Assembly: GCF_963676275.1 (NCBI RefSeq)
Contig: NZ_OY781091.1
Coordinates: 1 to 64,000 of the forward strand
Direction of reading: 5' to 3'
DNA from: an uncultured Cohaesibacter sp.
GTDB taxonomy: Bacteria; Pseudomonadota; Alphaproteobacteria; Rhizobiales; Cohaesibacteraceae
DNA length: 64,000 nucleotides
The position numbers were made by a program, and so were the translations under genes. The notes under the pieces were generated by a model. It was not told the DNA's origin and did no database searches. It saw only the letters and a program-made list of their open reading frames with translations. Below are positions 23,496 to 36,344 of the stretch, in pieces. Each line of letters begins with the position of its first letter. Position 1 is the stretch's first letter.

Positions 23496-23585
23496 GGAGA
23501 GGTGGCCGAGTGGTCGAAGGCGCACGCCTGGAACGCGTGTAGGCGGGTAACCGTCTCCAGGGTTCGAATCCCTGTCTCTCCGCCA
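23496..23585 (+). tRNA. tRNA-Ser (GGA anticodon)
   Basis: A 90-base class II tRNA. The 7-bp acceptor stem is GGAGAGG with TCTCTCC, the anticodon stem CACGC/GCGTG encloses loop CTGGAAC (anticodon GGA, reading UCC/UCU), a long variable arm follows, and the T loop is TTCGAATC. The 3' CCA is encoded. Confidence 0.97.
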
Positions 23586-24344
23586 TTTCCCAAGCAAGAA
23601 ATTGCAATTTATATAAATAAATTCAATGGCTTGCTGCCCCACCCCGCCCGCAAGATTACATCCGTGAATGTGTCGTTATCCAAGCAAAAAGCCGCAGTCA
23701 CTGCGAATTTTGGGCCTGCCTATTGTGCTGGCTTTGTCCGATTAACAACCGTTGCTTCGCCATAGCGAACCCTTGCCGAGCTGAAACGGCCAAAGCCAAT
23801 GCTTTTCCCTTATTTGGTGCCCACTTCAAATAGCGTAAGCAAGATGCTCTGTTGTGGATGCGGGGCTGCTGTCCTTGATGAACCGCCCGGTCGGTTTCTC
23901 GGTGGAGTAGAATTCGCTAGACGCAAAAGTTGTTCTTCTTTTATGCGCAAAATCAGAAAATAAAATCCTGAAAACGGGATAATGATTTTCCTCTCCTGTT
24001 TTGCAGTTTCGAGCCTCTGAGTTGGTTCGGTTCGTTCTTGCGCCGAAGCGCAAAGGTCTCTCTTTGAAAACTTCGTGATTTCAATTTGTTAGCTTTCTTG
24101 AGCGCGCGGGCGGTGGGCTTGGCTGTAGCGCCGAGATGGGCCTCTGCCTTTTTTCTATGCCGCTATTTTGTCCTCAAAACTCGTTTCTCGACCGAAGCGG
24201 CAGTGGTGGTGCTGAGGGGTTGTTAAGTCAATTGCAACTTCTGGGATGGATCTTTTGATTAGAAACACACAAATCTCCCTTAGAAAAAATTCGCCCTCCT
24301 TTCCTTCAGAACGCGCTGTTCTCTTCAAGTGCGAAAGAAAAGCT
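23586..24344. other. 759-base region between tRNA-Ser and chemoreceptor gene
   Basis: No convincing gene. A 75-codon minus-strand frame (23826-24053) has no recognisable motif or ribosome site. A small perfect hairpin TTGCGC-CGAA-GCGCAA sits at 24038-24053 without a T run. The chemoreceptor frame is open upstream to 24246, but the extension looks non-coding. The stretch may be a decayed gene or a long regulatory region; no copy of the tRNA 3' end was noticed. Confidence 0.35.
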
Positions 24345-26030
24345 ATGAAAAAACTGTTTCATTCGATCTCCAGTAAACTCTATACTCTGGTTGCCTTTTT
24401 TACCGTCTCCTTTGTGGCGATGCTGACCTATCAGCTCATAACGCTTTACGGCAATCTGGATGGATTCAAGCGCAACGAGCTTAAAAGCGTTGTTGAGATC
24501 GCCTACAATGTAACCCAGCATTTTTATGACATGTATCAGGACGGTACCCTGAGTGAAGATGATGCTGCGGAGCAGGCAAAAGCCGCTTTGCGCAAGATGT
24601 ATTATGAAGGCAAGGAATATATCTTCGTCTTGGATAATCAGGGCGTGATGCTGGTTTATCCGCCGAGCAAAAAGGTTGAAAACCAGAACCTCATGGAAAC
24701 CACGGACAGCAATGGCAAGTTTCATGTCAAGGCGATCGTGAATACCGTGTTGGCGAATGGCGACGGTTTTGTTCCCTATGCTTGGATCAATCCCAAAGAC
24801 AATGTCTATTATGACAAGATCAGCTACGCCAAAGAATTTCGCCCGTGGGGTTGGGCCATTGGCACCGGTGTTTTGACAACCGATGTTGATCATGCTTTCA
24901 GGAATGCGGCGATCAAGAGTGCAGGCTTTGCGGCTGTCATCGTGTTGATCGCCGCCGGGCTTGGCTTCTTCCTTGCGCGCTCCATCGCCAAACCGGTTGC
25001 TGCGCTGAATGGCAATATCCTTTCCATCGCCAATCATGAGCTTGATATCGAGATTGATGGTAAAAATCGCGGTGATGAAATTGGTGAAATGAGCCGTGCT
25101 GTCGAAACCTTCCGCATCAACGCCATCGAACGTGCACGGCTGGAAAATGCGGAACGGGAACGGGATGCAAATCGGCTCAAAATGGTTGAGCAAACCAATC
25201 AACTCATTGAATCTTTCCAGCAGCAAGTGGCCGAGAATCTGTCGATCGTTTCTGACCGGACCAATGAGATGGAAGCCGCAGCTGCCCAGCTCAGCGACAT
25301 CGCGCTGGAGACGGAGCAGAGCTCTTCTCAGGCGGATAGCTCATCCAATGATGCGACCAACAATGTTGAAACGGTTGCCTCGGCAGCGGAAGAACTGACG
25401 GCGGCGATCAACGAAATCATGCAGCAGGCCGAACGCAGCCGTGACGTTGTGGCCGAAGCCACCAAGGACGCCAAGACGTCCAACGAGAAGGTTGCCGAGC
25501 TGGATGAAGCGTCGCGCAAGATCGGTGAGGTGGTCAGCCTCATTCAGGCGATTGCAGAGCAAACCAACCTGCTTGCGCTCAATGCCACCATCGAGGCGGC
25601 AAGGGCTGGCGCTGCGGGCAAAGGCTTCGCGGTTGTGGCTGCTGAAGTCAAGGAGCTTGCGAACCAGACCTCGAAGGCAACCGAAGAGATTGGTTCACTG
25701 ATCAATGCCATTCAGGATTCCAGTCGCGAAACCGTTGCGTCCATTGCCAAAATCGATGCCGTGATGGAAAAAGTGGATGGCTACACATCCGCCATTGCCA
25801 CAGCGGTTGAGCAACAGGGCGCGGCGACCGGAGAAATCGCTTCCAACGTGCAGCAGGCCGCTTTCAGCACCAAGTCAGCCTCCAGCAATATGCGCGATGT
25901 CATGGGCAAGGCGCAGCTGACGACGCGGTCGGCGGAAACGGTCAGGGATGCCAGTGGTGAGTTGAAAAGCAGCACGGATATTCTCAAGCGTCAGATCGAA
26001 GACTTCATCAACAATGTGTCTGTTGCGTAA
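24345..26030 (+). CDS. Methyl-accepting chemotaxis protein with Cache sensor
   Basis: A 561-residue chemoreceptor. The first transmembrane helix is at about residues 10-32, then a periplasmic single-Cache (sCache_2-like) domain with [21 protein letters not shown] and [11 protein letters not shown], a second transmembrane helix near 190-210, a HAMP domain, and the long signalling coiled coil whose hairpin tip reads [26 protein letters not shown]. It signals through CheA/CheW. No C-terminal CheR-binding pentapeptide is seen. The start at 24345 begins directly before the membrane helix. Such Cache domains often bind small organic acids, but the ligand is unknown. Confidence 0.9.
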
Positions 26031-26199: not shown

Positions 26200-27408
26200 T
26201 TAGGAAACGCGGCGCAGAATAACAGCCGTCCCCATACCACCACCAATGCAAAGCGATGCGAGACCAAGCTCAAGCTCTTCGCGCATCATGCCGTAGAGCA
26301 AGGTGGTCGTGATGCGTCCACCAGATGCGCCCAGCGGATGGCCAAGAGCAATGGCGCCGCCCGTCACGTTGGTTTTGTCTTCGAACCAGTCCATGGAAAC
26401 GCCATGGTCTTTGCTCAGCCCTTTCATGACGGCAATGGCCTGTGCGGCAAAGGCTTCGTTCAGCTCGAGGCGCTGCATGTCTTCCAGCTTCAGACCAGCG
26501 CGCGAGAGTGCCTGCGTGATGGCAGGAACCGGACCATAGCCCATGATGGATGGGTCAACGCCACCCTGACCATAGGCCACCAATTCTGCCAATGGTTTGA
26601 GGCCATGTGCCTTCACGGCTTCTTCTGATGCCAGCACAAAGGCGACGCCGCCGTCGTTGATGCCGGAGGCATTGCCAGCGGTTACGGTGCCGTCTGGCTT
26701 GAAGGCTGGTTTCAGTTTGGCCATTTTCTCCATGGAAGCGTCGCCACGGGGATATTCGTCACGGGCAAAGCTGACTGTTTCCCTGCGGAGTTTGACCTCT
26801 ACTGGCGTGATTTCCGCATCAAACAAACCATCCTGAACCGCGGCATAGGCGCGCTGTTGGCTGCGCAAGGCGAAAGCGTCCTGATCTTGCCGCGAAATGT
26901 CGAATTTCTCGGCCAGATTTTCCGCAGTGATGCCCATATGGTAGTTGTTGAAGACGTCCGTCAGACCGTCATTGACCATGGTGTCGATGAGGGTTTGAGG
27001 GCCCATCTTGTGGCCGGTCCGGCTTTTGCCCGGAAGCGCAAATGGAGCCTGCGACATGCATTCCATACCTGCGGCGACAACAAGGGACGCATCGCCTGCC
27101 TTGATGTGGGACGCAGCGTCCATGATGGTTTTCATGCCAGAGCCACAGATCATGTTGACGGTGTAGGCTGGAACCGTTTTGGGAACGCCTGCATAGACGG
27201 AGGCCTGACGGCCCGGACCCATGCCCTGAGCGCCGCCCAGAACGTTGCCGACGATGACTTCGTCCAGAAGCTCAGGCTTCACTTTTGCCTGATCGAGTGC
27301 GGCTGCGATGGCTGCGGCGCCGATGCGGGCTGCAGGCAAGCTGGAGAGCGTGCCCAGAAAGCTGCCCATGGCGGTGCGCTTGGCACCTACGATATAGATT
27401 TTTGTCAT
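26200..27408 (-). CDS. phaA: Acetyl-CoA C-acetyltransferase (thiolase)
   Basis: A 402-residue biosynthetic-type thiolase that condenses two acetyl-CoA to acetoacetyl-CoA. The acyl-binding cysteine is Cys88 (NMICGSGMK), the conserved asparagine motif is LNEAFAAQ, the histidine is in ALGHPLGASG and the second cysteine is in LCIGGGMG. It lies 10 bases downstream of the acetoacetyl-CoA reductase gene, so the two form one operon. No PHA synthase or phasin gene is nearby; across the divergent promoter lie enzymes that would take the product on to butyrate. Confidence 0.93.
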   Translation of the reverse strand: MTKIYIVGAKRTAMGSFLGTLSSLPAARIGAAAIAAALDQAKVKPELLDEVIVGNVLGGAQGMGPGRQASVYAGVPKTVPAYTVNMICGSGMKTIMDAASHIKAGDASLVVAAGMECMSQAPFALPGKSRTGHKMGPQTLIDTMVNDGLTDVFNNYHMGITAENLAEKFDISRQDQDAFALRSQQRAYAAVQDGLFDAEITPVEVKLRRETVSFARDEYPRGDASMEKMAKLKPAFKPDGTVTAGNASGINDGGVAFVLASEEAVKAHGLKPLAELVAYGQGGVDPSIMGYGPVPAITQALSRAGLKLEDMQRLELNEAFAAQAIAVMKGLSKDHGVSMDWFEDKTNVTGGAIALGHPLGASGGRITTTLLYGMMREELELGLASLCIGGGMGTAVILRRVS

Positions 27409-27418
27409 GGTTGTTGCC

Positions 27419-28153
27419 TCAGATTACCAGACCGCCGTCGACTTTCAGCACCTGACCGGTGATGAAGCGGGCGCGGTCACTGGCGAGGAAAAGGACGCCC
27501 TGCGCGATGTCTTCGGCTTCGCCCATATGGCCAAGCGGGGTCTTGCTTTCCATGTAGGCGATGACTTTTTCCGGCAGATCTGCGGTCATCGGTGTTTTGA
27601 TGAAGCCCGGGGCAACGCAGTTTGCACGAACCTGAGCGCCTTTGCGGGAGAATTCCTTGGCCCAGCTTTTGGTCATGGCGATGACGCCAGCCTTGGTGGC
27701 GGCATAGTTGGTCTGGCCGATATTGCCGTCGGTTCCCACCACAGAGGACATGGTGATGATGGAGCCTGCGCCATTTTCTATCATGATCGGAGAGACGAAC
27801 TGGGTCATGTTGAAAACGCCCTTGAGATTGACGTCAATGACCATGTCCCAGTCTTTTTCGCTCATACGGTCGAGCAGACCGTCACGGGTGATGCCGGCAT
27901 TGTTGACCAGAACGTCGATTTTGCCGTTCTCTGCTTTGACTTTTTCAACGAAGGCGGAAATGGCGTCGCGATCACAAACGTTCAGTGAAACGGCTTCAAC
28001 AGTGGAGAATCTCTCTTTATAATCGGCCATTGCATCAATATTCATGTCGCATGCGTAAACTTTTTTTGCGCCTTCTGCTGCGAATGTTTCAACGATACAA
28101 CGACCGATGCCCTGAGCACCGCCGGTTACAATGCAAACCTTTTCCTTAAGCAT
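27419..28153 (-). CDS. phaB: Acetoacetyl-CoA reductase (PhaB/FabG-type SDR)
   Basis: A 244-residue short-chain dehydrogenase. The nucleotide motif is TGGAQGIG near residue 10, NNAG near 87, and the catalytic Ser-Tyr-Lys is in SSVVG ... YAATKAG. Coupling with a thiolase gene points to reduction of acetoacetyl-CoA to (R)-3-hydroxybutyryl-CoA rather than a general FabG role, although FabG function cannot be ruled out from sequence. It has no Arg after the second Gly-rich strand that would mark strict NADPH use; the residue pattern ACDMNID instead carries Asp, which favours NADH. Confidence 0.85.
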   Translation of the reverse strand: MLKEKVCIVTGGAQGIGRCIVETFAAEGAKKVYACDMNIDAMADYKERFSTVEAVSLNVCDRDAISAFVEKVKAENGKIDVLVNNAGITRDGLLDRMSEKDWDMVIDVNLKGVFNMTQFVSPIMIENGAGSIITMSSVVGTDGNIGQTNYAATKAGVIAMTKSWAKEFSRKGAQVRANCVAPGFIKTPMTADLPEKVIAYMESKTPLGHMGEAEDIAQGVLFLASDRARFITGQVLKVDGGLVI

Positions 28154-28454
28154 AATTCCACCTTCTACACTTGTTTGTCATGCGACAATTTCTTGCAAAT
28201 ATGTCGTGACCAAAATTATTGGCATGAAAAGCCGAGAATGATTATAGACAGCTGAGCAAAACAAAATTGTAGAAATGGGATTAGCAAAGCGCTGAAGCGG
28301 AGCGCATGGCGTGGTGATAGCGGCGCGCATTGGCAAGAATGCGGATTAAAACGCATTTTTGCAGAGGCCCTCTGTTGCGGCTTGTTCGGGGCAATGCTGT
28401 TTTGTATTGTCGCACTGGCAGCGGGACTTTGCTGCGCCTGGATGAGGACGAAGA
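28154..28454. promoter_or_regulatory. Divergent control region between phaB and LysR gene
   Basis: A 301-base spacer. CGACA and TGTCG half sites 13 bases apart lie near 28180-28205, and CCAA-N5-TTGG near 28212. Either could be bound by the neighbouring LysR-type regulator, but neither matches a named consensus well. No gene was found in it. Confidence 0.35.
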
Positions 28455-29366
28455 ATGCTTGATAAGTTGGTCTATTTCTTGAGTGTGGTGCGAACCGGTT
28501 CATTTTCCGATGCTGCGCGCCACTATGGCATCTCCGCCAGTGCGGGAAGCCGCTGGATCATCGAGCTGGAAGAAAAGCTAGGCGTTAGCCTGCTCAAGAG
28601 ATCAACGCGCAAAGTGGTGGCGACGGAAGCGGGCCAGCATCTTTATGATCGGTTCAATGGGGTGAATGCCGAAATCGAGGATATCTTCTCCGAATTGCAG
28701 CATTTTGGCCAAGAAGAGCGCGGCACCATCGTTGTCGCCTCCACGCCTTTATATGCGCGGCGCTTTCTTGCACGCATTGTTGGAGAATATTTGCTTGATC
28801 ATCCCAAAGTCAGTTTCCGGATCATTGAAACGGCGTTTGACGTGGACATGGTCGAGGATGTCGATTTCTTCGTTCGGGCCAATGCCACTTATGACGGATT
28901 TCAGGAAAAAGACAGCCTTTTGATCCGCCGCTCCCTGCAGCGCTACCCTCTCGTTGCTTGCTGTTCGCCGCAATATGCCGAGCGTTATGGCATACCACAA
29001 GCCCCTCAAGAGCTGTCCAAACACAACTGCCTGTTTGCCCATACTCTGGTGGGGGGGAACAAATGGGTGTTTGAGTATCAAGGCGAATATACGACGGTTA
29101 AGATCGCGCGGACGGTCGAAGTGGACGACAGCGAGATCATCAAATCCATTGCGTTGACGGGTGGAGGGATCGCCTATCTGCCTTTGATGATGCTGCGCGA
29201 TGAATTGGCGGACGGCAAGCTGATCTCCATCCTTGGCGACTATCTGAATGCGGAGTTTGAGCTCAATCTCTATTATCGCCAGAGAAAACAGATGCCGCTG
29301 TTATGCACCAATTTCAAGGATTATATGATCAAGAGAACCCGCGAAATCGGCGAACTTGAGCCATAA
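28455..29366 (+). CDS. LysR family transcriptional regulator
   Basis: A 303-residue LysR-type regulator with the N-terminal winged helix LVYFLSVVRTGSFSDAARHYGISASAGSRWIIELEEKLG and a periplasmic-binding-like effector domain from residue 90. It sits between the thiolase-reductase operon and the CoA-transferase operon and probably controls one or both in response to a metabolite. It was placed by context only; the effector is unknown. Confidence 0.9.
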   Translation: MLDKLVYFLSVVRTGSFSDAARHYGISASAGSRWIIELEEKLGVSLLKRSTRKVVATEAGQHLYDRFNGVNAEIEDIFSELQHFGQEERGTIVVASTPLYARRFLARIVGEYLLDHPKVSFRIIETAFDVDMVEDVDFFVRANATYDGFQEKDSLLIRRSLQRYPLVACCSPQYAERYGIPQAPQELSKHNCLFAHTLVGGNKWVFEYQGEYTTVKIARTVEVDDSEIIKSIALTGGGIAYLPLMMLRDELADGKLISILGDYLNAEFELNLYYRQRKQMPLLCTNFKDYMIKRTREIGELEP

Positions 29367-29408
29367 TTGGTCAGCTTCGGGCGCCAATGTTCGATATTCC
29401 TGCCAAAT

Positions 29409-29426
29409 ACGGGATCATTATCCCGT
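29409..29426. repeat. Short perfect dyad ACGGGAT-N4-ATCCCGT
   Basis: A 7-base perfect inverted repeat with a CATT loop, 43 bases after the LysR stop and about 125 before the CoA-transferase start. It lacks a T run, so an operator (LysR sites often have short dyads of this size) is as likely as a weak terminator. Confidence 0.4.
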
Positions 29427-29549
29427 TTGTGCAATTGTCTTTTGGATGATTGTCTATTCCCTACTTTTGTGAAGTTTTTTAGCATTGCGCCGCAATAAAA
29501 AAGGGCGCATTCGTATTTTTACTTGCGTCCTAAATTAAGGGGTCGAAAC

Positions 29550-31118
29550 ATGCAAGTAAAAATCATGACTCCAGACCAAGCTGCAGATCTCATTCAAGAT
29601 GATGATCGGGTTATTCTGGGAGGTTTTATTGGCGCGGTTGTTCCGGAAACCATTGAAATAGCGATTAAGGACAGATTCTTAACGACAGGGTGTCCCAAAA
29701 ATCTGGAGCTATATTTCACTGCCGGGCAGGGAGACGGAAAGGACCGGGCGAATAACCATCTCGCACATGAAGGTCTCGTGAAAAAAGTCATCGGTGGTCA
29801 CTGGGGACTTATCCCGAAATTGCAGGATCTGGCCAACCGAAACCTGATTGAGGCCTATAACCTGCCACAAGGTGTCATCGCGCAACTGATCCGTGACAGC
29901 GCGGCGGGTAAACCCGGCACGCTCTCCCATGTCGGCCTGGGCACATTCGTTGATCCCCGTATCGAAGGTGGCAAAATCAACGAGGCCACCAGCAAGGACA
30001 TTGTTTCGGTTCTGCAAGTCGGCGGCAAAGACTATCTCTTCTATGATCGCCTTGATGCCAACGTTGCGCTGCTGCGGGGTACCACGGCAGACAAACATGG
30101 CAATATCACCATGGAAGACGAATGCCTGTTCCTTGAGAATCTGGCTGCTGCGCAATTGGTTTCCAATATGGGCGGCAAGGTGATCGTGCAGGTCAAGCGC
30201 CTCGTTGAATATGGTGAGCTGGATCCGCAGCAGGTGCGCATTCCCGGCATTCTGGTGGACGCCGTTGTCGTTGCCAGTGGCGGCGAGCATATGCAGACCT
30301 TTGCAGAGCATCTCAATCCAGCCTATTGCGGGCGTGGATCAAGAGGCGGCGAAAAGGCCAAAGCCCATAAGCTGGACGCCAAGAAAATCATTGCGCGCCG
30401 GGCCGCGCTGGAGCTGCGCGAAGGGGCTGTGCTGAATTATGGAATTGGCGTGCCTGAAGTGATCGCCGAGGTGACTGATGAAGAAGGCGTGACCGACAAG
30501 ATGATTGCGACTGTTGAGCCGGGTGCGATTGGCGGAACGCCTGCCGGAGGTCTCAGCTTTGGCGCATCAGCCTTCCCTGATGCCGTGATTACGCAGGATC
30601 AGATGTTTGATTTCTATGATGGCGGCGGTGTTGATCAGGCCTTTCTCGGATTGGCCGAGGCCGACCAGTTCGGCAACATCAATGTTTCGCGCTTCGGGCC
30701 GACCATCGCAGGCTGTGGTGGTTTCATCAACATCACGCAAAATGCCAAGGAAGTCTGCTTCTGCGGCACCTTCACTGCCGGCGGTTTCAAATTTGAAACC
30801 GGTGACGGAACCCTCAAGATTACCCATGAAGGGCGGATCAAGAAGTTCCTCACGCAGGTTCAGCAGATTACCTTCTCGGGTGAGCAGGCCAAGCAGAATG
30901 GCAAGCCGGTGCTGTATATCACTGAACGGGCTGTCTTCAAGCTTTCCAAGGAAGGGCTTGAGCTGATCGAAATCGCGCCGGGCGTTGATCTTCAGAAAGA
31001 CGTGCTGGATCAGATGGACTTCAAACCAATCGTAAGCCCGGATTTGAAAGAAATGGACGCGCGCCTTTTCATCGATGAGCCTATCGGGCTGACACTTCGT
31101 TCCCCAGTATCCGTGTAA
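29550..31118 (+). CDS. Acyl-CoA:acetate/propionate CoA-transferase (family I)
   Basis: A 522-residue fused alpha-beta family I CoA-transferase, the size of propionate CoA-transferase (Pct) and YdiF. The catalytic glutamate is Glu323 in TVEPGAIGGTPAGG, and the oxyanion glycine loop is near GGFIGAVVPE. It moves CoA between short acyl-CoAs and free acids, for example butyryl-CoA plus acetate to butyrate plus acetyl-CoA. The start at 29550 follows AAGGGGT; a frame extension to 29523 is unsupported. It is the first gene of an operon with (R)-hydratase and enoyl-CoA reductase. Confidence 0.88.
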   Translation: MQVKIMTPDQAADLIQDDDRVILGGFIGAVVPETIEIAIKDRFLTTGCPKNLELYFTAGQGDGKDRANNHLAHEGLVKKVIGGHWGLIPKLQDLANRNLIEAYNLPQGVIAQLIRDSAAGKPGTLSHVGLGTFVDPRIEGGKINEATSKDIVSVLQVGGKDYLFYDRLDANVALLRGTTADKHGNITMEDECLFLENLAAAQLVSNMGGKVIVQVKRLVEYGELDPQQVRIPGILVDAVVVASGGEHMQTFAEHLNPAYCGRGSRGGEKAKAHKLDAKKIIARRAALELREGAVLNYGIGVPEVIAEVTDEEGVTDKMIATVEPGAIGGTPAGGLSFGASAFPDAVITQDQMFDFYDGGGVDQAFLGLAEADQFGNINVSRFGPTIAGCGGFINITQNAKEVCFCGTFTAGGFKFETGDGTLKITHEGRIKKFLTQVQQITFSGEQAKQNGKPVLYITERAVFKLSKEGLELIEIAPGVDLQKDVLDQMDFKPIVSPDLKEMDARLFIDEPIGLTLRSPVSV

Positions 31119-31143
31119 GACAGCTTCACCGGATTTCTGGCTT

Positions 31144-31196
31144 CGGGAGGCCCATTCGTATCCTCCCCCCCCCTTAAATGACAGGTGGGCCTCCCG
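31144..31196 (+). repeat. Intercistronic 11-bp hairpin enclosing a C9 tract
   Basis: CGGGAGGCCCA (31144-31154) and TGGGCCTCCCG (31186-31196) are perfect complements. The 31-base loop contains nine consecutive C. It lies between the CoA-transferase and hydratase genes and could stabilise or separate the two mRNA parts. It lacks a T run. Confidence 0.6.
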
Positions 31197-31230
31197 ATCT
31201 CCCTTTAAAGAAAGAAACACGAGACTTCCA

Positions 31231-31650
31231 ATGAGTTACACCTTGGAGCAGCTTTCTATCGGCCAGAAAGCGTCGTTTGAAAAGACGATCAGTGAGGCCG
31301 ATATTCAAATGTTTTGCGGGATCAGTGGTGACATAAATCCCGTTCATGTCAGCAGTGTTGCTGCCAGCAAAAGCGTTTTTGGCAATCGAGTGGCCCACGG
31401 AATCCTCGTATCAGGACTGACATCTGCAGTGCTTGGCATGCAATTGCCTGGTCCCGGCACCATCTATATGGGGCAGGATTTGCGGTTTGTTGCTCCGGTC
31501 TATATCGGTGACACGATCACCGCTGAGGTAGAGGTTGTCGAGATCCTTGCAGAGAAAAGGATTGTAAAGCTGAAGACGACCAGCACGAAACAGGACGGAA
31601 CCGTCGTCATATCGGGAATGGCAACGGTTCGCCCGCCGGAAAAGTCCTGA
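31231..31650 (+). CDS. phaJ: (R)-specific enoyl-CoA hydratase (MaoC/PhaJ type)
   Basis: A 139-residue hot-dog fold hydratase. The hydratase 2 motif is complete: Asp and His of SGDINPVHVS, followed by RVAHGILVSGL. These enzymes interconvert (R)-3-hydroxyacyl-CoA and trans-2-enoyl-CoA with short chains. Here it would dehydrate (R)-3-hydroxybutyryl-CoA to crotonyl-CoA, the substrate of the reductase encoded next. Its stereochemistry fits the PhaB-type product from the divergent operon. Confidence 0.88.
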   Translation: MSYTLEQLSIGQKASFEKTISEADIQMFCGISGDINPVHVSSVAASKSVFGNRVAHGILVSGLTSAVLGMQLPGPGTIYMGQDLRFVAPVYIGDTITAEVEVVEILAEKRIVKLKTTSTKQDGTVVISGMATVRPPEKS

Positions 31651-31701
31651 TTGCTCACCATCCAAAGATAAGTCAAACTCTTCCAATCATCAGAGAAACT
31701 C

Positions 31702-32889
31702 ATGATTATTCAACCAATTATCAAGGGGCAGGTTGCAAAATCCTGTCACCCCCTCGGGTGCGCAACGGCCGTCAAAGACCAAATCGCCTTTGTTCGTCAG
31801 GCAGAGCAGATCGCCAACGGACCAAAGAAGGTTCTTGTGCTGGGAGCATCTTCGGGCTTCGGGCTTGCCTCGCGTATTTCATTGGCGTTTGGTGGTGCCA
31901 AGGCTGATACCATCGGTGTTGCCTTTGAGCGCGGGCCATCTGAAAAGGGTATTGGCACGGCAGGTTGGTACAACCTGATCAGCTTTGAGAAAGAAGCCAA
32001 AAAGGAAGGCCTTATCGCCAAGAATTTCGTCGGTGATGCCTTCTCGCCAGAGGTTCGCAAGTCTGTTGTTGATTTCATCAAGACCGAATTTGGTGGCAGC
32101 GTTGACCTTGTCGTCTATTCGCTGGCAACAGGAGTGCGCCCCGATCCTCAGAGCGGGGAACTCATTCGCTCTTCCATCAAGGCCATTGGCGAGCCGATCA
32201 CGGGCTACACGGTCAATCTTGAGAAAGACTGCTTTGAAGAAAGCACGCTCGGGGCGGCGACTGAAAAGGAAATCGAAGATACCGTCAAGGTTATGGGCGG
32301 CGAAGATTGGGAAGAATGGATCAACTATCTTTCCGATGCAGGCGTGCTGGCTGAAGGATGTCAGACCTTTGCCTATTCCTATATCGGTTCCCAGCTGACC
32401 TACCGCATCTATCATGAAGGCACATTGGGGCAGGCCAAGGCTCATTTGCAGAAAACATCCGATGCGCTGGACGCCAAGCTCCAAGAGATCGGCGGTCAGG
32501 CCCATGTGGCTGTTTGCAAGGCACTGGTGACCAAGGCCAGTGTATTCATTCCCGCTTTCTCTCCCTACATTCTCGCCCTTTTCCGGGTGATGAAAGCCAA
32601 GGGACTGCATGAAGGCTGCAGTGAGCAGATGCAGCGTCTCTATAGGGATTGTGTCTACCGCAAGGATGGAAAGGTCCTGACCGATGAGAACCGTTTGGTA
32701 CGGGTCGATGATTGGGAGCTGCGTGACGATGTGCAGGAAGAGGTCCGCAAGATTGTCGCTGAAATGACCCCTGAAAATTTCAAGGAGTTGGGGGATTATG
32801 AGGGCTATAAAAGTGACTTCCTCAAGCTCAACGGTTTCGATCTTGACGGTGTGGATTACGCTCAGGACATAGATATAGAAGCGATGTGA
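31702..32889 (+). CDS. Trans-2-enoyl-CoA reductase (TER/FabV family)
   Basis: A 395-residue NADH-dependent enoyl reductase. It has the family's start MIIQPIIKGQV, the nucleotide motif LVLGASSGFGLASR, IGTAGWYN, KVMGGEDWEEW and the active site Y-x8-K (Tyr237, Lys246), ending in NGFDLDGVDY. Members either reduce crotonyl-CoA to butyryl-CoA irreversibly (TER) or act on enoyl-ACP (FabV). The operon with a CoA-level hydratase and CoA-transferase favours the TER role. It is followed by a terminator. Confidence 0.9.
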   Translation: MIIQPIIKGQVAKSCHPLGCATAVKDQIAFVRQAEQIANGPKKVLVLGASSGFGLASRISLAFGGAKADTIGVAFERGPSEKGIGTAGWYNLISFEKEAKKEGLIAKNFVGDAFSPEVRKSVVDFIKTEFGGSVDLVVYSLATGVRPDPQSGELIRSSIKAIGEPITGYTVNLEKDCFEESTLGAATEKEIEDTVKVMGGEDWEEWINYLSDAGVLAEGCQTFAYSYIGSQLTYRIYHEGTLGQAKAHLQKTSDALDAKLQEIGGQAHVAVCKALVTKASVFIPAFSPYILALFRVMKAKGLHEGCSEQMQRLYRDCVYRKDGKVLTDENRLVRVDDWELRDDVQEEVRKIVAEMTPENFKELGDYEGYKSDFLKLNGFDLDGVDYAQDIDIEAM

Positions 32890-32928
32890 ATTCAGCGCCG
32901 CTTCATTCGTAATTATACGCAAATTTAC

Positions 32929-32962
32929 AAGAGTGCCGTGCATTGCGCGGCACTCTTTATTG
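32929..32962 (+). terminator. Intrinsic terminator after enoyl-CoA reductase
   Basis: AAGAGTGCCG / CGGCACTCTT stem with a 9-base loop and a short T-rich tail, 40 bases past the stop. Confidence 0.75.
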
Positions 32963-33101
32963 GTAATTACCGCAATTGGTCGGTTATTTCGTTTTTAACA
33001 AAAGACCTTCCCAAATTCGGGACGGTGACTTCCTTGATTTGGGTATATGAATACTAAGTGAAAATAAAAGTATCGGAAAATAAGTCTTAGGGAGGCTCTC
33101 A

Positions 33102-34304
33102 ATGTTCCGAAAATCTGTAATCGAGATTGTGGTATTCATGACATACGCGTTCTTTGCCATGTCATGGGTGGCTGGCAACATGATGACCAAGGACATTATG
33201 TCTTTCTATCATGTTGAGGGTGTGACCGCCGCAACATGGATGACCAACGCAATCACAATCGCCAAAATCATTGGCAACCTTTGTGCCGCCTGGTTTTTGA
33301 CTAAGCTGGGGCCAAAGAAAGCTTTTGCTTTTGCCTCTATCCTGATTGTTGCCGGTATTATTGGAGCGTTCGTTTCAAACTATCCTATGTATGTCGTCAC
33401 TCGACTGATTATGGGTTTCGGCGGGGCATTTGTTATCGTCTATATGAACCCGGTCGTCATGAACTACTTCTCCAAGGGTGAGCTTCCGATTGTCAACGGT
33501 ATCAACGCTGCTGCCTTCAACACGGGCAACCTGTTGGCAATTCTCTTTACCGGTTCTCTTTTGGCCCAGTTGGGCACTTGGCAAAATGTGGTCATCGGTA
33601 TTTCCGTTGTCAGTTTCGTTCTGCTTGTTATCTGGATGATTTTCTCGGAAGATTTTGAGCTTTCCAGCAGCAAAGACGGCAAAGCAAAGAAAAGCTATGG
33701 CCTTGGCGATGGTGTCAAGGATCCTGTCAACTGGTTCCTGCCATTCGCCTATTCCGGCGTGTTGTTCTGCTACATCTCCGTGTTTGCCATTTTCCCGATG
33801 GTTCCAAACTTTGCAGCTGAAGCCAAGTATCTGTCTTCCATTCTGATCGCTGCGGGTATGGTCGGTACTGTCGTTGGTATCATCGTCGCCAAACGCTTCA
33901 CCACACGTGTTCCGGTTCTGCGCTGGTCGGGTCTTTTCATGACCATCTTTGCCGCCATCATGGCGTTCACCAGCAATGCCGCGATCGCCTACAGCTGTGC
34001 GTTCCTTGCAGGCTTCTTCATGTTCGTTCCGATGACCAGCCTTGTTACCTTGCCATACGAACTGCCGGGCATGAATCCGGGCCGTATCGCCGTCGTCTTT
34101 GCCATGTTCTGGTCCGTATCCTACATCATCGAAACCATCCTGATGTATATCTCCGGCCGTATCGCTGATGCCACCGGCGATATCATGATCTCAGCGATTT
34201 TCGCGATTGTCTGCTCTGCAACCCTGTTTGTTGCTAGCTTCCTGCTTCCGGAACCCAGCAAGCAAAAAGCAGTGGCTGATGCTTCTGCTGCGCCTGCTGA
34301 ATAA
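33102..34304 (+). CDS. MFS transporter
   Basis: A 400-residue inner-membrane carrier of the major facilitator superfamily with about 12 spans. The loop between helices 2 and 3 reads WFLTKLGPKKAFAF, a degenerate form of the MFS motif GxLaDrxGrkxxl, and the second half repeats the pattern near AKRFTTRVPVLR. It belongs with the esterase gene 19 bases downstream. Next to a short-chain acid pathway, export or import of an organic acid is a reasonable guess, but the sequence does not reveal the substrate. Confidence 0.8.
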   Translation: MFRKSVIEIVVFMTYAFFAMSWVAGNMMTKDIMSFYHVEGVTAATWMTNAITIAKIIGNLCAAWFLTKLGPKKAFAFASILIVAGIIGAFVSNYPMYVVTRLIMGFGGAFVIVYMNPVVMNYFSKGELPIVNGINAAAFNTGNLLAILFTGSLLAQLGTWQNVVIGISVVSFVLLVIWMIFSEDFELSSSKDGKAKKSYGLGDGVKDPVNWFLPFAYSGVLFCYISVFAIFPMVPNFAAEAKYLSSILIAAGMVGTVVGIIVAKRFTTRVPVLRWSGLFMTIFAAIMAFTSNAAIAYSCAFLAGFFMFVPMTSLVTLPYELPGMNPGRIAVVFAMFWSVSYIIETILMYISGRIADATGDIMISAIFAIVCSATLFVASFLLPEPSKQKAVADASAAPAE

Positions 34305-34323
34305 GTGAAGGGAGATATTCGAG

Positions 34324-35259
34324 ATGCGTGAAGTTAGTCCAAAACTGGTCGGTTATCTGAAAGACCTCAATGCGACCGTTGCCCAGCTTGTAGCCGCAGG
34401 CTTCAAACCCAACGCAACCAACGCCCGCGAAGGTCTGGCCAATCTGACCAAAACCTATGTGACCAATATTCCTGCGGTCTCCAAAATCCAGGACGATGTC
34501 ATTCCGGCAGAAGGATTTCACGTTCCGGTCCGCATTTATAACCCTGCTCCGGACGAAGAGCTTCCGGTGGTCATCTATTACCATGGTGGCGGTCACATGT
34601 GCGGTAGCGTTACGGTCTATGATCCGATTTGCCGCAAGGTTGCTTTGGCAACCAGACATATCGTCATCGCTCCGGAATATCGTCTTGCGCCTGAATGTCC
34701 ATATCCGGCCGGTGTTATCGATGCCTATGCAACGCTAAAAGGTGCTTTTGCGGTGCTGGCAGCCAATGGCATGAAGTTCAAGCGGGAAGTCTCTATCGTC
34801 GGGGATTCCGGCGGCGGTGCTCTCTGCGGCGCGGTTGCGGGCATGGCGCAGTTTGACGTTAGCGTCAAGATCAAGAAGCAGTTCATGATCTATCCAAGCC
34901 TTGATTACACCATGGACTCCAAGTCCATGGAAGAGAATGGCGTCGGATATTTGCTGCAGGCTGGCAAGATTGCCTGGTATTTCGACAATTACCTCAAAAA
35001 TGGCGAATGCCGGAAATCTGTCTCTCCACTCTATGGTGACTTCACGAAGAATCTTCCCGAGACCTTTGTTGTCACCGCAGAATTCTGCCCATTGCGGGAC
35101 GAAGGCAAAGCCTACTATGAAAAAGTGCGCTCGGCGGGCGTTGCTGCAACCCACGTCAATATGGATGGAATGATCCATACTTTCATGAATATGGAAGATC
35201 TGGTGGAAGAAGAATGCGCATTTGTCTATGACAAAATGAACAGCTTCCTGAATAGCTAA
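34324..35259 (+). CDS. HSL-type alpha/beta hydrolase, catalytic Asp replaced
   Basis: A 311-residue hydrolase of the hormone-sensitive lipase (group IV esterase) family. The oxyanion motif is HGGG (87-90), the nucleophile elbow GDSGGG with Ser162, and the histidine His285 in GMIHTF. The usual acid sits in DPLRDEG, but here the residue is Cys255 (EFCPLRDEG), so the canonical Ser-Asp-His triad is incomplete; Asp259 of RDEG remains. Activity may be altered or lost. It shares an operon with the MFS carrier and ends at a strong terminator. Confidence 0.85.
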   Translation: MREVSPKLVGYLKDLNATVAQLVAAGFKPNATNAREGLANLTKTYVTNIPAVSKIQDDVIPAEGFHVPVRIYNPAPDEELPVVIYYHGGGHMCGSVTVYDPICRKVALATRHIVIAPEYRLAPECPYPAGVIDAYATLKGAFAVLAANGMKFKREVSIVGDSGGGALCGAVAGMAQFDVSVKIKKQFMIYPSLDYTMDSKSMEENGVGYLLQAGKIAWYFDNYLKNGECRKSVSPLYGDFTKNLPETFVVTAEFCPLRDEGKAYYEKVRSAGVAATHVNMDGMIHTFMNMEDLVEEECAFVYDKMNSFLNS

Positions 35260-35471: not shown

Positions 35472-36344
35472 TTAGCAGCCGGCCAGAACGAAGCGGGAAA
35501 AGCGAAGGGCCTCGCGCGCGTCGTTATCCATCTGCTCGTCGGAGGCATTGTTGCTGAGGTCCCGCCAGACGCGAATGTCGCGTCCGACTTCGCCACCGGT
35601 TTTGACAAAGGGCTCCATGACAACAGTTCCTTCATAGCCGATTTCCCGCAGGGCCGTGCCGATTTCATGCCATGGAAGCCGTCCCTTGCCGGGCACCCGA
35701 CGGTTGTTTTCGCCCGTGTGGAAGTGGCCAAGAAGCGGGCCTGCCGTCCGAATGGCGGCGCTGAAACTGTCCTCCTCGATATTCATATGGAAGGTATCCA
35801 GCATAACCTTTACGTTGGATTTGCCGGTTTCGGTCACAAATCGAACGCCCTCTTCGGCTGTGTTGATAACATGATTTTCAAAGCGGTTGAGCACCTCAAT
35901 GCACAGGTTGATGTCGAGATCAGCGGCAAAATCGGCAAGGCTGGAAATCCCTTCGACACCACGGGCCCAGTCGCCTTCCTTATCCAGCGGCTTGTTGAAG
36001 TCCACCGGCCAATAGGAATGCAGCGCGCCACCTATGCTATGAATATCCAGCTTGGCGATATTGCTCAGGGTTTCTTCGAAAAATGCCCGCCCCGCCTTGC
36101 GCACATCCGCATCCGCAGAAGAAAGATTGCATGTTTCCTTCGGCCCAAGCCCTGCGGTCATGATGATGCCGTTGTCACGGGCACAACGCCCTATTTCGTC
36201 CAGATGGGCAGGACTGAAGCTGTTGACATGGTGTGCGGCGATCTCAATCACATCAAAGCCAAGCTTGGCCACCCGCTCGATATAGGGAAGGCAGTCCGCC
36301 CCCCATGAATTTTCCCAGTAAGAATAATAAATGCCGAATTTCAT
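35472..36344 (-). CDS. Ketose 3-epimerase (D-tagatose/D-psicose 3-epimerase family)
   Basis: A 290-residue TIM-barrel epimerase. The four metal ligands of the family are visible: Glu in IEVLNRFENH, Asp in MLDTFHMNIEE, His in GHFHTGENNR and Glu in VMEPF. The N-terminus MKFGIYYSYW and GPKETCNLSSAD are typical of D-tagatose/D-psicose 3-epimerases, which invert C3 of free ketoses. It is the last gene of the operon starting at the sugar-binding protein, so it probably acts on the imported sugar or its keto form. Confidence 0.87.
   Translation of the reverse strand: MKFGIYYSYWENSWGADCLPYIERVAKLGFDVIEIAAHHVNSFSPAHLDEIGRCARDNGIIMTAGLGPKETCNLSSADADVRKAGRAFFEETLSNIAKLDIHSIGGALHSYWPVDFNKPLDKEGDWARGVEGISSLADFAADLDINLCIEVLNRFENHVINTAEEGVRFVTETGKSNVKVMLDTFHMNIEEDSFSAAIRTAGPLLGHFHTGENNRRVPGKGRLPWHEIGTALREIGYEGTVVMEPFVKTGGEVGRDIRVWRDLSNNASDEQMDNDAREALRFSRFVLAGC

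Follow-up and report, generated by a model that had tools for sequence, protein, structure and literature searches.

The first 64,000 nucleotides of the genome of an uncultured Cohaesibacter sp. (G000, a single contig of 5.03 Mb; this stretch, positions 1–64000, is called the window below) contain a block of eight genes, abbreviated here as thl, sdr, lysR, coaT, maoC, ter, mfs, and abh, which together form the cassette under study. The original prediction, made from the letters of the window, described seven of them—for a thiolase, an (R)-type short-chain dehydrogenase/reductase (SDR), a LysR regulator, a coenzyme A (CoA)-transferase, a MaoC hydratase, an enoyl-CoA reductase, and a carrier of the major facilitator superfamily (MFS)—as a route from acetyl-CoA to butyrate. 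When the window proteins were assigned to families with Pfam and NCBIfam models, the latter with their cut-offs, these seven open reading frames (ORFs) were found at the predicted positions and in the expected families, and the residues singled out (thiolase Cys88, CoA-transferase Glu323, and reductase Tyr237-x8-Lys246) were confirmed. The inventory had overlooked an eighth gene, which encodes an HSL-type esterase at 34324–35259. The features of the locus are as follows.

26200–27408, minus strand: thl, thiolase (acetoacetyl-CoA <-> 2 acetyl-CoA); Thiolase_N/C, TIGR01930 at 464 bits (cut-off 241)
27419–28153, minus strand: sdr, predicted (R)-3-hydroxybutyryl-CoA/acetoacetyl-CoA SDR; adh_short_C2, FabG subfamily NF009466 over its cut-off
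28265–28284, minus strand: possible operator copy upstream of sdr–thl, three mismatches, from a pattern search
28455–29366, plus strand: lysR, LysR-type regulator between the divergent operons; HTH_1 and LysR_substrate
29417–29436, plus strand: operator-like element ATTATCCC-N6-GCAATT, exact, of the T-N11-A type, upstream of coaT
29550–31118, plus strand: coaT, YdiF/FadX-type acyl-CoA:carboxylate CoA-transferase, Glu323; CoA_trans
31231–31650, plus strand: maoC, predicted (R)-specific enoyl-CoA hydratase; MaoC_dehydratas, motif D34-x-N-P-x-H39
31702–32889, plus strand: ter, predicted trans-2-enoyl-CoA reductase (TER); TER/FabV fold family, Tyr237-x8-Lys246, tree, and site comparison
33102–34304, plus strand: mfs, MFS carrier that may import 3-hydroxybutyrate (3HB) or an ester or oligomer of it; MFS_1, paired with abh in other genomes
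34324–35259, plus strand: abh, HSL-family alpha/beta hydrolase (esterase), proposed hydrolase of 3HB oligomers or esters; Abhydrolase_3

The thiolase carries its Cys88 within NMICGSG (from residue 85), together with the motifs NEAFA, GGAIALGHP, and CIGGG. The SDR, which scores under the cut-off of the acetoacetyl-CoA reductase model TIGR01829, has the Tyr150/Lys154 pair and an Asp36 after beta-2 that is kept in 11 of the 11 homologues printed; Asp at this position is typical of NAD-type SDRs, and the enzyme is probably of the NAD(H) type. The CoA-transferase (Glu323 numbered from the ATG at 29550, the listed ORF starting at the TTG at 29523) reaches 401 bits with the FadX model, below the cut-off of 750, and its best solved relative is YdiF (2ahu). 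The esterase gene begins 19 bp past the end of mfs; its product contains HGGG, GDSGGG, and His285, and scores 254 bits with the LipP1 model, below the cut-off of 350. Among solved structures, only weak matches for mfs, and carboxylesterases and lipases for abh, were found, indicating the substrate of neither. As judged from families and residues, the original prediction stands in that a set of (R)-type, CoA-level genes occurs naturally and encodes all steps as far as butyryl-CoA, with an enzyme for release of the product, and a CoA-level, butyrate-releasing role of the cassette is considered quite probable.

Conservation of the cassette and its operator-like element

The eight genes are kept in order and orientation in three of 18 Cohaesibacter genomes (G000, G012, and G014), with the G012 and G014 proteins 79–98% identical to those of the window, and these three alone have an esterase match with an E-value of 1e-60 or lower. 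In a wider survey, the esterase was used as a probe in 398 genomes of the phylum, and the neighborhoods of the eight best other matches were fetched; one of these, G755 of the Vibrionaceae, contains a complete block at 63–75% identity. Among 197 Vibrionaceae genomes, 101 have some esterase match, and 41 of these loci were examined (G755 plus 40 more, taken largely from the top of the scores; G870, G899, G852, G932, and G832 were skipped though scoring above the lowest two loci fetched). The block is complete in four of the 41 (G755, G846, G945, and G847), while G839 has five cassette genes and then a contig end. G901 carries lysR–coaT–ter–mfs–abh with a divergent GntP permease gene beside lysR, G804 carries sdr together with lysR–coaT–mfs–abh, i.e., a cassette without maoC, ter, and thl, and G921 carries lysR–abh together with sdr. 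The remaining loci comprise mfs–abh alone (two; G929, and G934 at a contig end), an isolated ter–abh pair (13; L092, L093, L096, L098, L099, L104–L108, and L110–L112), and abh without other cassette genes (18). In every complete block, thl and sdr make up an operon that adjoins the remaining genes and diverges from them, and the LysR encoded at the same place in Vibrionaceae cassettes is 64–68% identical to that of the window. The eight genes are one conserved unit and no chance gathering.

A related arrangement is found in Fusobacteriota. Plasmid p2 of the fish-gut anaerobe Cetobacterium somerae (NZ_CP143321.1, L043) encodes orthologues of six of the eight cassette proteins together (thl 55%, sdr 63%, coaT 54%, maoC 53%, mfs 36%, and abh 58% identity), with Bcd-EtfB-EtfA where the cassette has TER, a TetR-type regulator instead of LysR, and an added GntP permease. 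A plasmid of Fusobacteria bacterium ZRK30 (CP102406.1) likewise groups the CoA-transferase with MaoC, and also has GntP, Bcd-EtfBA, and an extra enoyl-CoA hydratase; thiolase, SDR, mfs, and abh matches are absent in the 21.6 kb fetched. The crotonyl-CoA-reducing step thus looks like a swappable slot that can be filled by TER or by Bcd/EtfAB. The gene set is no peculiarity of Alphaproteobacteria: the block is common to Vibrionaceae and, in other form, to Fusobacteriota.

The operator-like element, whose T-N11-A shape fits a LysR box, emerged when intergenic regions from seven blocks were aligned; it is a putative operator to which the cassette LysR may bind. Upstream of coaT the element occurs in both classes, being exact in the window, G755, G846, G847, G945, and G804 and having one mismatch in G012, G014, and G901; the copy at 29417–29436 is the single exact match in the 5.03-Mb genome. 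Copies 5′ of sdr have one to three mismatches in five Vibrionaceae (G755, G846, G847, G945, and G804) and three in the window, and copies 5′ of mfs are found in G846, G847, G945, and G804 (two mismatches each) and G901 (one). Because shuffled windows yield about four matches per 64 kb at up to three mismatches, the window copy at 28265 counts by its position only. Ten whole genomes were also searched, allowing one mismatch at most and either A or T as the last base; this gave 38 matches, compared with 11 for a reversed control pattern. All ten exact matches, from eight of the ten genomes, lie inside cassettes or fragments, as do nine of the 28 one-mismatch matches, the other 19 lying elsewhere. 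Since some of the cassettes searched had supplied the pattern, their matches are expected; the informative part is that no exact match lies elsewhere.

Assignment of the reductase

A rival explanation is that the ter product is a FabV serving membrane fatty-acid synthesis, with the gene group only loosely related. In its favor, the protein scores over FabV models (517 bits against a cut-off of 400 for NF043048, a model that may also accept known TERs), and its best solved relative bears the name enoyl-acyl carrier protein (ACP) reductase. In an unrooted tree of 48 proteins with only four solved references (4eue, 4ggo, 5xi0, and 3s8m), however, 31 cassette-type proteins, solo Cohaesibacter copies included, form one group at a support of 0.998, joined next by the Clostridium acetobutylicum TER 4eue (0.996) and then by the Treponema denticola TER 4ggo (0.91). 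Eight proteins, namely the FabVs 5xi0 and 3s8m with six canonical copies, are separated from the rest at a support of 1.0. At 25 sites the two reference TERs share a letter that neither FabV has; here the window protein has nine TER letters, four FabV letters, and 12 others, and the six canonical copies have 0–2 TER and 18–24 FabV letters. The reductase thus sides with the CoA-type TERs and not with canonical FabV.

Gene distribution points the same way. G000 encodes two FabI proteins (51% and 50%), one adjoining FabA- and FabB-like genes (judged by eye), and ter is probably not needed as the enoyl-ACP reductase of the genome, though it may serve as a backup. A TER/FabV match is absent in nine of the 18 Cohaesibacter genomes (one of the nine only 64% complete), and all 17 Vibrionaceae tested keep a separate second copy at 49–53% identity, of which the five placed in the tree fall in the FabV group. 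TER is very rare in the class: beyond the genome's own, it was found in one of 384 genomes (a fragmentary 19-bit match) and in one of 43 relatives outside the genus, at 48%. Given the TER grouping and the presence of FabI, a CoA role of the reductase is likely, and since the CoA-level Bcd/EtfAB fills the same slot in Cetobacterium, the enzyme encoded here probably acts on CoA esters, with NADH as the reductant to be expected from its family. The original assignment as a TER rather than an ACP-type FabV is thus retained, and a role in lipid synthesis is regarded as very improbable.

Further TER copies were seen. A second TER in G000 (G000:C1:4477857-4479035, L019) is 71% identical and solo, near a HutF-like amidohydrolase gene, with similar solo copies in G001–G004, G007, and G010; the copy in G012 has a TAG stop. 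A third TER/FabV copy, present in G846, G945, and G755 (L151, L152, and L153; 54–55%), lies with the G804 copy among the cassette-type proteins of the tree.

Proposed dismutation of 3-hydroxybutyrate and rival readings

Activation (coaT), an oxidative branch (sdr and thl), and a reductive branch (maoC and ter) are encoded together in the cassette. From the gene content, order, and conservation, the element, and the paralogue relations, we infer a substrate, direction, cofactor use, mode of transport, and regulator binding as follows. A short ester or oligomer is the probable form in which (R)-3HB arrives; the MFS protein would import it, the esterase would release 3HB from it, and the CoA-transferase would activate the 3HB with acetyl-CoA or butyryl-CoA as the CoA donor. 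One part of the 3HB would be oxidized by the SDR and thiolase to acetyl-CoA, yielding NADH, with which MaoC and TER would dehydrate and then reduce the other part to butyryl-CoA; this would pass on its CoA to activate another 3HB, and butyrate would leave. The net conversion of two 3HB into one butyrate and two acetate would be redox-neutral. That the cassette is a LysR-controlled, horizontally shared unit for the uptake and dismutation of (R)-3HB is proposed tentatively, at a little short of an even chance, and the fuller proposal—a dedicated cassette for (R)-3HB or its oligomers in marine Proteobacteria, with a swappable crotonyl-CoA-reducing slot and a natural TER-dependent butyrate route—is put forward with somewhat more reserve.

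Several observations favor uptake of 3HB. Both mfs and abh are conserved, and in three (G544, G725, and G649, not G743) of the four non-Vibrionaceae Proteobacteria loci having the pair without coaT they adjoin a 3-hydroxybutyrate dehydrogenase gene; two of these dehydrogenases score over the PRK12429 and TIGR01963 cut-offs, and the third over that of PRK12429 alone. GntP permeases, which are hydroxy acid importers, have joined the cassette twice (in Cetobacterium and G901). Furthermore, the G804 cassette, without maoC, ter, and thl, fits 3HB oxidation better than butyrate synthesis, and the all-(R) stereochemistry would be explained by the (R) configuration of the monomers of poly(3-hydroxybutyrate) (PHB). 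Beside the mfs–abh pair, G544 encodes a hybrid sensor kinase with an NahK/ErcS-like C-terminus (L064:11615-14959), and similar long ORFs were seen by eye in the other three loci (L065, L066, and L068); as a guess, this kinase is possibly a sensor of short-chain acids.

Other findings weigh against this proposal. Three of the four mfs–abh loci come from a single family (f225), the MFS and HSL-esterase families say nothing on substrate, and nothing connecting GntP with 3HB emerged from a literature search. A cassette-type TER (63%) is encoded at another site of the G804 genome, and the reductive branch of G804 may only have been relocated. The 13 isolated ter–abh pairs of Vibrionaceae are left unexplained by a pure 3HB-ester role. 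With respect to regulation, element copies at up to three mismatches are absent 5′ of sdr in G012 and G014 and 5′ of mfs in G755 and the three Cohaesibacter. Anaerobic use of the cassette is unproven because an FNR-like box is not conserved in the intergenic regions of the seven blocks, which contain a few scattered two-mismatch matches; FNR control was rejected as a reading. None of the 18 Cohaesibacter genomes has a match above the cut-off of TIGR01840, the model for secreted PHB depolymerases (six have weak matches), and attack on the polymer by the organism itself is therefore unlikely.

The strongest rival, although unlikely, is close to the original prediction: a fermentative route in which acetyl-CoA derived from sugars is converted to butyrate, with the CoA-transferase recycling acetate, the MFS protein exporting butyrate, and the esterase being accessory. 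All the enzymes that it requires are encoded, the TER grouping and the Bcd/Etf swap favor CoA-level reduction, and the divergent thl–sdr operon adjoins the other genes in all complete blocks; NADH from the NAD-type SDR could feed TER in either direction. The lack of a conserved FNR box tells against this route, as do the GntP permeases, the G804 variant, and a conserved esterase and carrier that elsewhere pair with 3HB dehydrogenase. The genes for butyryl-CoA formation and butyrate release stand as predicted, the evidence leans away from the one-way direction, and dismutation of 3HB is favored modestly over fermentation from acetyl-CoA. Less probable still is a reading in which the esterase has a different short acyl ester as its substrate, or is a thioesterase of butyryl-CoA, and the cassette handles crotonate, acetoacetate, or mixed C4–C5 acids. 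The isolated ter–abh pairs, the resemblance of abh to the LipP1 type, and the promiscuity of the HSL esterase family would suit such a role, whereas abh and mfs beside 3HB dehydrogenase, with ter not adjoining, would not.

A PHA or PHB storage operon was rejected as an identity for the cluster, phaC being absent in or near it. The original statement that no polyhydroxyalkanoate (PHA) synthase is nearby holds locally, but not genome-wide: the sole PhaC match in G000 lies away from the cassette (G000:C1:2293519), and PhaC is encoded in all 18 Cohaesibacter genomes. PHB breakdown, which the original prediction had named as an outcome that would speak against it, is close to the context preferred here, with butyrate still the predicted product.

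As for the surroundings of the block, a chemoreceptor-like gene (24246–26030, judged by eye) adjoins thl, and has a 96% identical neighbor at this place in G012 and no counterpart found near the G014 block. The sole tRNA gene of the window, tRNA-Ser(GGA) at 23496–23585, lies 2.6 kb ahead of the block and is a possible integration site. Directly after the block, on the minus strand, are a D-psicose 3-epimerase gene (35472–36344; NCBIfam over cut-off), a gene of the nucleoside/nucleotide-kinase family, and ABC sugar-transport-like genes (by eye). Separately, a Salinivibrio plasmid (L166:7998-14607) encodes a cassette-like SDR (66%) in the vicinity of FabI, an acetate/propionate kinase, and a bifunctional enoyl-CoA hydratase/phosphate acetyltransferase; these may form a further C4 acid route, one that gains ATP.

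Comparison with known systems

If 3HB dismutation is correct, the cassette would provide a genetic basis for 3HB fermentation beyond the strict anaerobes known for it, testable in culturable marine bacteria, and some Cohaesibacter, Vibrionaceae, and Cetobacterium would be new butyrate formers that escape searches keyed on clostridial Hbd/Crt/But. In marine sediments and animal guts, bioplastic monomers would then be converted to butyrate and acetate; the cassette may also bear on the effect of PHB feed on gut bacteria in aquaculture. In the open-access literature, nothing evidently pertinent was found on a natural TER/PhaJ butyrate route, which is weak evidence of novelty, or on butyrate formation by Cohaesibacter, Photobacterium, or Cetobacterium.

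The clostridial route runs through Thl-Hbd-Crt-Bcd/Etf-But. It shares with the cassette the C4 intermediates, save for their stereochemistry, and release by a CoA-transferase; the hydroxyacyl step is (S) in clostridia and (R) in the cassette, whose CoA-transferase is of the YdiF/FadX type and may or may not act like But. The phaA-phaB-phaJ-ter combination is best known from engineered strains, and the engineered butanol/butyrate pathways proceed from acetyl-CoA to butyryl-CoA with the four classes of enzyme also encoded here. The cassette differs from them in being natural, in having its own regulator, CoA-transferase, carrier, and esterase and a FabG-like SDR with an NAD-type Asp, and in probably being run from 3HB; if so, this engineering logic would have a natural counterpart with matching accessory genes. 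Fermentation of 3HB to acetate and butyrate by Ilyobacter polytropus is described in passages of two papers (PMC3035301, PMC10096456), one of which gives a stoichiometry of two 3HB to two acetate and one butyrate (PMC10096456); as far as these passages go, the substrate, products, and stoichiometry predicted here are alike. The likeness is one of physiology, and the cassette is distinguished by its all-(R) route, its TER reductase, and its occurrence in Proteobacteria. Overall, the cassette may well ferment the monomer of bacterial bioplastic to butyrate and acetate, with an enzyme combination otherwise known mainly from engineered strains.

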